From Roseateles sp. DAIF2 (GTDB taxonomy: Bacteria; Pseudomonadota; Gammaproteobacteria; Burkholderiales; Burkholderiaceae_C): a stretch of DNA of 64,000 nucleotides. The notes beneath the pieces are model-generated. The model was not told the origin of the DNA and did not search any database. It saw nothing but the letters and a program-made list of their open reading frames with translations. The stretch is taken from positions 5,828,001 to 5,892,000 of the forward strand of contig NZ_CP049919.1 in assembly GCF_015624425.1 (NCBI RefSeq), read 5' to 3'. The translations under genes were made by a program, and so were the position numbers. Below, piece by piece: positions 26,221 through 28,674 of this stretch; the stretch's first letter is position 1, and the number at the start of each line of letters is the position of its first letter.

Positions 26221-27090
26221 TCAGACCGCCGGCAGCGGCCCGCCCACCCCGCCGGCGGCCGCGACCCGGGCGGCCATCTCCTTGCGGAAGCGGTTCAGCT
26301 CCTGCACGCTGGCGAAGCTGCGCTCCATCAGCAGGCTCATGTTGTGCAGGATGCGCTCGACCACCTTGGTCTCCCAGACCGCGTCGAACTGGATCTGCTT
26401 GTCCAGCCAACGCTCCAGCCATTCCGGGTCCGGCAGGCGGCTCTGGATGGTGTCGCGCGGGAACAGCTTGGCGTTGACATGCAGATTGGTCGGGTGCAGC
26501 GCCTGGGCGGTGCGGCGCGCGCTGGCCATCAAGACGCCGACCTTGGCGAAGGCGGCCTTGGCCTCGTCACCAAACTTCTGCATCGCGCGCTTCATGTAAC
26601 GCAGGTAAGCACCGCCATGGCGGGCCTCGTCGCGCGAGAGCGTCTCGTAGATCGCCTTGATGACCGGCTCGGTATGCCATTCGGCGGCGCGGCGGTACCA
26701 ATGGTTCAGGCGGATCTCGCCGCAGAAATGCAGCATCAGCGTTTCCAGCGCCGGCGCGGGGTCGAACTCGAAGCGCACCTCGTGCAGCTCCTGCTCGGTG
26801 GGCACGAGGTCGGGCCGGAAGCGGCGCAGGTATTCCATAAGCACCAGCGAATGCTTCTGCTCCTCGAAGAACCAGACGCTCACGAAGGCGGAGAAGTCGC
26901 TGTCGTCCCGGTTGTCGCGCAGGAACATCTCGGTGGCCGGCAGCGCGGACCATTCGGTGATCGCGTTCATCTTGATCGTGCGCGCCTGGTCCTCGCTCAG
27001 CCGGCCGGCGTCGAACTTGTCCCAGGGGATGTCGGTGTCCATGTTCCAGCGCACCGCTTCGAGCTGCTTGAAAAGTTCGGGATAGAGCAT
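26221..27090 (-). CDS. ferritin-like diiron protein
   Basis: This 289-residue protein has an iron-binding pattern of paired helices: E-x-x-H in FFEEQKHS and D/E-x-x-H in SRDEARHGG, plus acidic residues in ITEWSALPATE and FCGEIRLNHW. That layout matches ferritin-like/acyl-ACP desaturase-type diiron carboxylate proteins. It lacks a signal peptide and membrane segments. The reaction is unknown; it could be an oxygenase or desaturase-like enzyme. It converges on the ABC operon across a shared terminator. Confidence 0.7.
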   Translation of the reverse strand: MLYPELFKQLEAVRWNMDTDIPWDKFDAGRLSEDQARTIKMNAITEWSALPATEMFLRDNRDDSDFSAFVSVWFFEEQKHSLVLMEYLRRFRPDLVPTEQELHEVRFEFDPAPALETLMLHFCGEIRLNHWYRRAAEWHTEPVIKAIYETLSRDEARHGGAYLRYMKRAMQKFGDEAKAAFAKVGVLMASARRTAQALHPTNLHVNAKLFPRDTIQSRLPDPEWLERWLDKQIQFDAVWETKVVERILHNMSLLMERSFASVQELNRFRKEMAARVAAAGGVGGPLPAV

Positions 27091-27296
27091 GGTCCGTCCT
27101 TGTTGGGAGCGGAAATTCTATGCCTCGCCTCGTGCGCCGTGGGATTGCTGTCGGCATGCCCGAAGCCCCTTGAAAAACCGGCCTCGGGACCACAGTTGCA
27201 GGCATGTTGCAGACCCCCTGTTTTGCTGTACCCACTATGGGGGACAGGGGCCCGGAACTTGATTCATCGAATCAAAACACAGGTTACATAAGGCAC

Positions 27297-27530
27297 ATCG
27301 TGAAACCGTCGCCACAGCAGGTCTGAGGGAGACTGCAAAACAACGGTTCTCTATTGACTGCCAAACGGCTAAAGTCAAAACAAGATTTTAGTCGCAAGAC
27401 CGCCTCCGCGAGGAGGCTGAAATCCCGAAGCCCTTCTCCTCCTCCTCCCTCCCTCCCTCGTTGGCTTCGGGGCGTCTTGCGGCCTCTTTTATGCCCGGGG
27501 CTTCCGCACACAGCGGAAGCCCTTTTCTTT
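27297..27530 (+). ncRNA. candidate structured small RNA with a CU-rich loop
   Basis: No plausible protein gene lies here and both flanking genes are on the other strand, yet the plus strand folds well and ends in a clear terminator. Paired segments are 304-309/343-348 (of 27xxx) enclosing a 7-bp hairpin at 317-336 with a GAGGG loop; TTGACTGCC 354-362 with GGC/AGTCAA 367-378; and an 8-bp closing stem CGCAAGAC 393-400/GTCTTGCG 474-481. Inside the closing stem sit GCCTCC-GCGA-GGAGGC (402-417) and CCCGAAGCC/GGCTTCGGG (424-432/463-471). The second of these exposes a CCTCCTCCTCC-type loop. The 5' end is uncertain. I do not recognise it as 6S, tmRNA, RNase P or SRP RNA. Confidence 0.6.
27498..27530 (+). 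terminator. rho-independent terminator of the candidate RNA
   Basis: GGGCTTCCGC (27498-27507), loop ACACA, GCGGAAGCCC (27513-27522), then TTTTCTTT. The T run is only on the plus-strand side, so it ends a plus-strand transcript. Confidence 0.85.
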
Positions 27531-27546
27531 GCCTGCCGCGGGGGGC

Positions 27547-27969
27547 TCAGCCCATGTAGGGATCCCAGAAGCCGGGATCCGGCTCGACCTGCTCGCAGAT
27601 GTCCAGCGCCAGCCCGCTCGGGTCCACGCATTGGAAGCGGATCTGGCCCCAGGGCTCGCGCCGCACCGGATAGCTGATCGTCACGCCAGCTTCGCGCAGC
27701 TCGGCCTCGCAGGCCCGCGCATCCTCGACCTGGAAGGTGTAGAGGACGCCCAGGCCATTGAAGGCCTCGGGGCCGGGCGGCATCGAGGGGTGGTCGGGCG
27801 TCATGAAGGCCAGGGTGACGGGCCGCTCGCCCTCATCGCCGGGCCGCTGCAGCATCACGAACCAGCTCGACTCGAACACCGTCTCGAAGCCGAAGAAGCG
27901 GGTGTAAAAGTCGCGGCACTCATGCGGGCGCGCGGTGGTGACCAGGGGGTAGTGATCCAGCAGCTTCAT
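27547..27969 (-). CDS. VOC family (glyoxalase-like) protein
   Basis: This 140-residue protein has the paired beta-alpha-beta-beta-beta modules of the VOC fold: HYPLVTTARPHECRDFYTRFFGF at the start and QIRFQCVDPSGLALDICE near the end. Its Glu and His residues could bind a metal. The activity could be glyoxalase, dioxygenase or drug binding. It is divergent from a TetR gene, and twin operators lie in its promoter, so it is very probably repressed by that regulator. Confidence 0.88.
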   Translation of the reverse strand: MKLLDHYPLVTTARPHECRDFYTRFFGFETVFESSWFVMLQRPGDEGERPVTLAFMTPDHPSMPPGPEAFNGLGVLYTFQVEDARACEAELREAGVTISYPVRREPWGQIRFQCVDPSGLALDICEQVEPDPGFWDPYMG

Positions 27970-27999
27970 CGTCGTGATTCCTTTCTTGCTTTCTTGATG

Positions 28000-28014
28000 C
28001 ATACAGCTTGTATG
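28000..28014. promoter_or_regulatory. TetR operator, site 1
   Basis: CATACAGCTTGTATG is a perfect 6-3-6 palindrome. Site 2 (28034-28048) has the same CATAC-W-GC-Y-TGTATG pattern 34 bases away, centre to centre. Confidence 0.8.
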
Positions 28015-28023
28015 TGAAATGGA

Positions 28024-28052
28024 ATTTAAAATACATACTGCCTGTATGTCAA
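28024..28052 (-). promoter_or_regulatory. sigma-70 promoter of the VOC gene
   Basis: On the minus strand TTGACA (28047-28052) and TTAAAT (28024-28029) are separated by exactly 17 bases. Operator site 2 fills the spacer, so a bound repressor would block polymerase. Confidence 0.7.
28034..28048. promoter_or_regulatory. TetR operator, site 2
   Basis: CATACTGCCTGTATG repeats the site 1 pattern with one central mismatch. It overlaps the -10 region (ATACAT, 28031-28036) of a likely TetR-gene promoter whose -35 is TTGTAT (28008-28013), and also the VOC promoter spacer. Confidence 0.8.
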
Positions 28053-28068
28053 CAATCACCATCGCACC

Positions 28069-28674
28069 ATGACCGATGCCCCCCTCGGGAAAAAGGCCCA
28101 GCAGGCCGCCGATTCGAAGGCGCGCCTGATCGGCGAGGCGCGTGCGCTGTTCCAGGCCCAGGGCTATGCGCAGACCTCGACCGAGGCCCTGCTGTCCGCC
28201 ACCGGCCTGACGCGCGGCGCGCTGTACCACCACTTCCGCGACAAGAAGGACCTGTTCGCGGCCGTCTGTGCGCAGATGCATGGCGAGCTGGGCGCGGCGA
28301 TCGAGGTGGCCACGGCCGGCATCGAGGAGCCGGCGCGGGCGCTGCGCCTGGGCTCGCATGCCTGGCTGCGGGCCGTCGCGGAGCCGGGGCGTTGCCGGGT
28401 GCTGCTGCTGGACGCGCCGGCGGTGCTGAGCAGCGAGGAATGGGCGGCGCAGGATGCCGCCCATGGTTATGGCGCGCTGCGCATGGCGGTGCGCGCCCTG
28501 CGCGGTGCCCGGGATGCCGGCGAAGAACTGCAGGCGGACGCCCTGGCCGCCGCACTCAACGGCGCGATGAACCAGCTGGCGCGCTGGTGCGCCGAGGAGC
28601 GCAGGCCCGATGCCGCGGCCGCGGCGGAGGCGGCCATCGACGCCCTGCTCGACGCCGCACTACCGCCGGCCTGA
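28069..28674 (+). CDS. TetR/AcrR family regulator
   Basis: This 201-residue protein has the TetR helix-turn-helix at residues 17-65 (ARALFQAQGYAQTSTEALL, TRGALYHHFRDKKDLF) and a helical ligand-binding domain after it. Two matching palindromes stand in the 99-base gap shared with the VOC gene, so it probably represses both itself and the VOC gene until a ligand binds. The ligand is unknown. The C-terminal third is Ala-rich. Confidence 0.92.
   Translation: MTDAPLGKKAQQAADSKARLIGEARALFQAQGYAQTSTEALLSATGLTRGALYHHFRDKKDLFAAVCAQMHGELGAAIEVATAGIEEPARALRLGSHAWLRAVAEPGRCRVLLLDAPAVLSSEEWAAQDAAHGYGALRMAVRALRGARDAGEELQADALAAALNGAMNQLARWCAEERRPDAAAAAEAAIDALLDAALPPA

Follow-up and report, generated by a model that had tools for sequence, protein, structure and literature searches.

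The question raised by this locus is whether the space between two minus-strand genes holds a small RNA gene of its own on the plus strand and, if it does, what such an RNA would do. The window (the whole stretch of DNA that was analysed, 64,000 nucleotides from Roseateles sp. DAIF2) contains an intergenic gap of 456 bases at 27091-27546. The gene to the left (26221-27090, minus strand) has weak ferritin/AurF/desaturase-like matches and the gene to the right (27547-27969, minus strand) is glyoxalase-like. A preliminary description of this DNA had placed a plus-strand RNA between these two minus-strand genes, and the geometry of the gap is as it claimed. What lies in the gap appears to be a genuine small RNA gene, widespread in its own bacterial family. 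Transcription of the RNA in this genome is predicted from the features listed below, with a putative start at about 27287-27289. No sigma-70-like promoter was found on the plus strand in a scan of 26900-28200.

27227-27246, no strand: palindrome TGTACCCACTATGGGGGACA, candidate operator, 7 bases before the -35 element; sole site in the window at one mismatch or fewer
27254-27260, plus strand: -35 element GGAACTT of sigma-E (RpoE/AlgU) type
27277-27281, plus strand: -10 element ACACA after a spacer of 16; the consensus is TC and then A, the first base being mismatched
27288-27530, plus strand: predicted small RNA transcript of about 240 nt, its start placed from the promoter and its end from the terminator
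27391-27400, plus strand: 5' side of the closing stem, pairing with 27474-27483 over 10 bp; 9 of 10 pairs changed on both sides, 98.2% of cells paired
27402-27417, plus strand: inner hairpin 2; 6 of 6 pairs changed on both sides, 83.0% paired, length variable among relatives
27423-27432, plus strand: 5' side of hairpin 3; 9 of 10 pairs changed on both sides, 95.5% paired
27433-27462, plus strand: 30-nt loop of hairpin 3, CTTCTCCTCCTCCTCCCTCCCTCCCTCGTT, its first 27 nt C/U only; anti-Shine-Dalgarno-like
27463-27472, plus strand: 3' side of hairpin 3, partner of 27423-27432
27474-27483, plus strand: 3' side of the closing stem, followed by a T-rich stretch at 27486-27493
27497-27530, plus strand: intrinsic terminator hairpin (27497-27523, terminator scan) with T-rich tail

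Fold, terminator and covariation

The three-way junction of the preliminary description is present and spans 27391-27483, the 8-bp closing stem given there being the inner part of one of 10 bp. The plus-strand terminator with a T run was likewise recovered, as a hairpin at 27497-27523 with T-rich DNA after it, and the T-rich stretch that follows the closing stem may be a terminator in itself. Folding gave a z-score of -4.34 for a 251-nt cut and -4.52 for a 156-nt cut, and in each case none of 200 shuffles was equally stable. Two 5' hairpins that had been counted with the fold (27304-27348 and 27354-27378) are not part of the conserved RNA. Both have 6-bp arms and are absent from the minimum-energy fold of the 251-nt cut. 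Among 12 matched relatives, the match of L002 alone covers either hairpin wholly, and two others begin at 27362.

Absence of covariation and of conservation in relatives had been named at the outset as grounds for giving up the RNA; relatives retain the element, and its pairs show covariation. For ten aligned cores a common fold was predicted in which 19 of 27 pairs have changes on both sides, and for the fold described here the same cores gave 18 of 26 such pairs, with 95.8% of cells paired. None of 500 shuffles of this alignment was as high on four of five measures, and 43 of 500 reached the observed value on the fifth, further pair types. In 65 loci aligned to the model, 24 of 26 pairs were changed on both sides as compared with 17.7 in shuffles. 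Pairing in this larger alignment was 93.8% against 37-47% in slid controls, and none of 500 shuffles was as high on any measure. These 65 loci were drawn from 90, the remainder being duplicates or same-genus copies as far as checked. Because it was fitted to the structure, the 65-locus alignment leans towards it, and covariation is tested more cleanly by the ten cores, whose alignment was unfitted. Shuffles and slid frames served as controls for both alignments, with relatedness by tree left uncorrected. Against a protein-coding reading stands the length of the element, which is 104-116 across the 65 loci and changes by amounts not divisible by three.

Distribution and known RNA families

At the DNA level, 13 of 80 related genomes searched, the own one among them, have a match. 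Covariance model R1 matched 278 of 399 genomes of the own family and 8 of 300 in a sample of the order, all of them own-family. Covariance model R2 matched 285 of 399 own-family genomes, in 107 of 141 genera. It also matched 12 of 399 genomes in an order sample (11 of the 12 own-family genomes listed, and one genome of another family). In a sample of the class it matched 3 of 369, each of them own-family. Among the genomes listed, R2 found one copy each with the exception of G014, which has two; the own genome has one match. The large scans were run under strict filters, so that a missing match, as in 114 of the 399 family genomes for R2, is not proof of absence. Named members occur in Rubrivivax, Hydrogenophaga, Variovorax, Polaromonas, and Roseateles. 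Sampling was mostly one genome per genus, hand-picked from the listed better-scoring matches, and weak members are therefore under-sampled. The 80 named loci, those listed out of 89 stretches found, were retrieved by exact loop sequence and are thus uninformative on loop conservation. The 145 loci collected were merged to 134 where core and near flanks were identical.

The sole match seen outside the own family (L204, 3592-3692, minus strand, 43.7 bits) has a strong junction, a flavin-containing amine oxidoreductase gene (flavin gene) directly downstream and a ferritin-like gene in the same stretch. Since it stands ahead of the same flavin gene as many family members, with a ferritin-like gene nearby, it was taken as a true relative. 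The C/U tract of its loop is shorter and less pure, and GGAACTT is absent from the 160 nt examined. Its occurrence outside the family may reflect horizontal transfer or an ancestral form. Another copy, L105, comes from the record of a Methylotenera MAG, has a score identical to that of the Roseateles locus L102 and is probably contamination; it was still present when the loci were merged.

The preliminary description could not match the RNA to a known class and proposed a comparison with Rfam, in which no family reached its gathering score in the window or in 14 relatives. The result is a widespread, mostly single-copy RNA gene that the Rfam version used does not recognise, and a search of openly licensed papers found no description of it. 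Five weak Rfam matches in the gap (E 0.016-2) were rejected on score. Rejected candidates include ctRNA_p42d (22.6 bits vs 50), which covered the terminator hairpin alone, and alpha-r14 (RF02344; 21.5 bits, E 0.058), far under its gathering score of 58.8. SorY, a singlet-oxygen small RNA (RF02651), gave a weak match that includes a CCUCCCU stretch and was rejected at 17.9 bits against a gathering score of 111.

Likeness to known RNAs is found at the level of architecture. The alpha-r14/NfeR1 RNA of Sinorhizobium meliloti likewise displays a CCUCCUCC-type loop, unpaired and borne on a stem, ahead of an intrinsic terminator. The accessible part of its published account describes three hairpins, each with CCUCCUCCC, and silencing of ntrB mRNA via these loops (PMC10746234). 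The three-hairpin feature is absent from the present RNA, which has one long C/U loop in a three-way junction and a short, variable loop on hairpin 2 and, unlike alpha-r14, belongs to beta-proteobacteria. Burkholderia ncS27/bdhR1 (RF02278) and Bordetella S17 are also beta-proteobacterial and have C/U-rich unpaired regions, which the available portions of the reports describe as covering ribosome-binding sites, whether shown or predicted (PMC5688073, PMC11722255). RF02278 RNAs are described in the same portions as two short hairpins with three to five homologues per Burkholderia genome, whereas one match was found in the own genome here. RF02278 gave no match at gathering score in the window or in 14 relatives, and the matches in the gap up to E 10 do not include it. 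S17 differs in that, in the portion available, it starts at a sigma-A promoter and is then processed. By the features tested, the present RNA most likely lies outside the alpha-r14 and RF02278 families and most likely has a similar mode of action.

Promoter and upstream palindromes

MicA and RybB are sigma-E-dependent small RNAs of enterobacteria. RNAs of that group resemble the present one in that a sigma-E type promoter precedes a small RNA ending in a terminator, as far as the part of the source available goes (PMC1804206). In a motif-free count of upstream word pairs GGAAC-N18-CTCCA came first, in 13 of 117 loci, the best pair in shuffles reaching 4. GGAACTT, with 52 of 117 loci, is the commonest upstream 7-mer (the reversed word occurs in 3 and the reverse complement in 1), and 21 of 3612 control windows contain it. 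It is followed by TC at spacer 16 in 30 of the 52 loci and at spacer 17 in 18. The full pattern GGAACTT-N16/17-TC(N1-2)A is present in 46 of 117 loci vs 2 of 3612 control windows. With one mismatch or fewer, the promoter that marks the sigma-E-dependent class is present in 84 of 117 loci vs 8 of 1864 control windows, which were taken from the same loci and are mostly gene DNA. By neighbour class, the 84 comprise 51 of 62 loci on the flavin side, 22 of 38 on the corA side, 9 of 15 others, and 2 of 2 that are cut off. A first promoter model had been rejected, its top matches (about 250 nt, spacer 13) reading like coding sequence (WNFHKYL, glutathione peroxidase-like), and for this reason the upstream region was cut to 165 nt and direct patterns were recounted. 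A glutathione peroxidase gene stands upstream of the RNA in Variovorax L167 (Pfam).

The RpoE/AlgU consensus has been given as GAACTT-16/17-TCCAAA and that of the RpoE2/ChrR type as TGATCC in the accessible text of PMC4336711; the upstream element fits the former and not the latter. For Neisseria, another beta-proteobacterium, the part of the report available gives sigma E a different -35 (PMC2893595). The own genome has one sigma factor above the NCBIfam RpoE cut-off. The strict pattern GGAACTTN{16,17}TCNNA showed no genome-wide enrichment in the own genome (8 matches vs 19 for the reversed control), and a looser promoter pattern was absent from the stretch examined upstream of the own rpoE gene. 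The promoter sequence points to sigma-E control of the RNA in this genus as well, where it is uncertain because the window copy carries one mismatch, in the -10 element, and the element is absent from both congeners examined (L002 and L003). If sigma-E control is true, the RNA would form a beta-proteobacterial sigma-E small RNA arm, built unlike the enterobacterial ones.

The palindrome TTGATTC-ATC-GAATCAA at 27259-27275, first put forward as a possible regulator site, is exact but not conserved, since the window is the only one of 132 loci that has it within two mismatches. One of 100 shuffles has a match with two or fewer mismatches, and the palindrome overlaps the -35 element and the spacer of the sigma-E-like promoter. 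The candidate operator at 27227-27246 is of a shared type. Its pattern, TGT[AC]CC-N8-GG[GT]ACA, was found upstream in 20 of 132 loci vs 1 of 2336 control stretches, lying 155-161 nt before the model start in 10 loci and 204-295 nt before it in the other 10. Where the source is named, 7 of 11 palindrome loci are from Roseateles or Mitsuaria. The sigma-E element is missing from 17 of the 20 palindrome loci and present in 89 of 112 palindrome-free ones; only the window, L005 and L134 have both, with a start-to-start spacing of 27 nt in the window and L005. Four loci (L006, L032, L033, and L124) have the palindrome, and no ferritin-like gene was found in the left stretch examined, so that the palindrome likely serves the RNA. 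The shared palindrome suggests that control of the RNA has changed in the Roseateles group. In ten loci (L076, L101, L124, L134, L144, L148, L156, L159, L164, and L168) the palindrome is followed by GTGACAGTTGCTCAC or a near variant of it, a block that we take to be CRP-like.

Neighbouring genes, the C/U loop and mode of action

The flavin gene lies about 21-139 nt downstream of the RNA on the same strand in 71 of 134 loci, the starts of flavin and neighbour genes being extrapolated from tblastn. The gene corA is convergent on the right within 3 kb in 44 of 134 loci. In 90 of 134 a ferritin-like gene is found on the opposite strand to the left, at a distance of 175-2076 nt. An independent small RNA gene, as proposed in the preliminary description, is the best reading for this genome; in 71 loci the RNA stands ahead of a plus-strand gene. 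The free-standing form is thus one of two main arrangements, and the loci together make up a natural series with operon leaders at one end and free-standing small RNA genes at the other.

The reading preferred here, with a probability of roughly 0.6, is a sigma-E-type gene for a trans-acting anti-Shine-Dalgarno small RNA that works like alpha-r14/NfeR1 or ncS27/S17. An unpaired C/U tract complementary to GGAGG is found in both fold and consensus. A pyrimidine run of at least 21 occurs in 62 of the 65 aligned loci vs 4 of 10050 control windows, and changes of loop length among relatives come in repeat units. A loop of C and U only that changes by repeat units fits register-free pairing with purine-rich Shine-Dalgarno sequences. 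Loop and stems are kept in the 44 corA-side loci, which lack a following flavin gene, and this favours a role for the RNA in its own right. In the proposed mechanism, sigma E would switch the RNA on in envelope or oxidative stress, joined or replaced in relatives of the window by a regulator binding the upstream palindrome. The junction would present the C/U tract as an unpaired loop, and by pairing with GGAGG-type Shine-Dalgarno sequences the tract would keep ribosomes from binding a set of mRNAs.

The RNA might instead be a cis-acting leader or attenuator of a flavin oxidoreductase operon, the window copy being a relic left after the operon moved. This reading is unlikely, although it draws on the 71 loci with the flavin gene close behind the RNA and on L204, which also stands directly before that gene. 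Where the flavin gene is within 60 nt, moreover, a second terminator was detected in 5 of 36 loci only. In the own genome a flavin gene (49% identical) is found elsewhere, in the stretch G000:C1 3739092-3741113 (L091, L189), where it diverges from a gene for an ECF-like sigma factor that scores 37 bits against the RpoE model, below the cut-off; its separate location, too, counts for this reading. A relic should decay, however, and copies with no following gene keep the loop and the covarying stems. In the window itself the RNA is separated from the flavin gene, yet loop, stems and own terminator are kept, and of the 44 corA-side copies, which have no flavin gene behind them, 31 have a second terminator. 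The loop could also mask few of the flavin genes, GGAG or GAGG being found within 25 nt of the estimated start in 23 of 71. Beside the own flavin gene, behind the ECF-like sigma factor gene, lies one encoding a cupin-like protein, which presumably resembles ChrR, and a TGATCC-type promoter word lies between the flavin and sigma factor genes.

An anti-Shine-Dalgarno small RNA could also act on a following operon. A flavin gene within about 20-60 nt of the RNA would most simply be transcribed through it, and at such loci the RNA would double as the leader, or as a leaky terminator, of a stress-lipid operon. The downstream genes in Rubrivivax benzoatilyticus (L136) include a cyclopropane-fatty-acid-synthase-like enzyme. 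In a bolder form, to which we give little credence, the RNA would be a sigma-E-driven mimic of the 16S rRNA tail. Its register-free loop would damp initiation on many mRNAs with strong Shine-Dalgarno sequences, and read-through of the terminator would switch on a membrane-lipid stress operon. If this is true, one transcript couples translational restraint to membrane repair.

Binding of the C/U loop to a protein (Hfq, ProQ, or another), or sponging of GGA-rich RNAs such as CsrB-like ones in place of mRNA starts, is less probable still. A single anti-Shine-Dalgarno site would need neither the length nor the purity of this loop, and no specific target was seen in the own genome, a result that also counts against the preferred reading. 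There, a search for an extended target with the 22-nt complement, up to three mismatches allowed, found the RNA gene itself alone, and nine porin start regions gave short pairing only, from starts chosen mechanically and with no background computed. Known RNAs with such loops, however, have been shown or predicted to pair with mRNAs in the accessible parts of the reports cited above. That the conserved feature is the DNA, with the purine strand GGGAGGGAGGGAGGAGG forming a G-quadruplex and the RNA incidental, is highly improbable: three CCC tracts occur in 114 of 134 loci and four in 12 (80 of the 145 source loci were retrieved by loop sequence), but 8 of 134 have two or fewer, pair changes are compensatory in all three stems, and promoter, fold and terminator are in fixed orientation.

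To the right of the RNA, the window has a glyoxalase-like gene on the minus strand and a divergent TetR-family gene on the plus strand (27547-28674), which lie between the RNA and corA. The start of corA is 2274 nt from the RNA, the largest distance among the 44 corA-side loci (1105-1918 in the others), and the pair of genes therefore looks inserted. Repeats of ATACA/TGTAT type are present between the glyoxalase-like and TetR-family genes.
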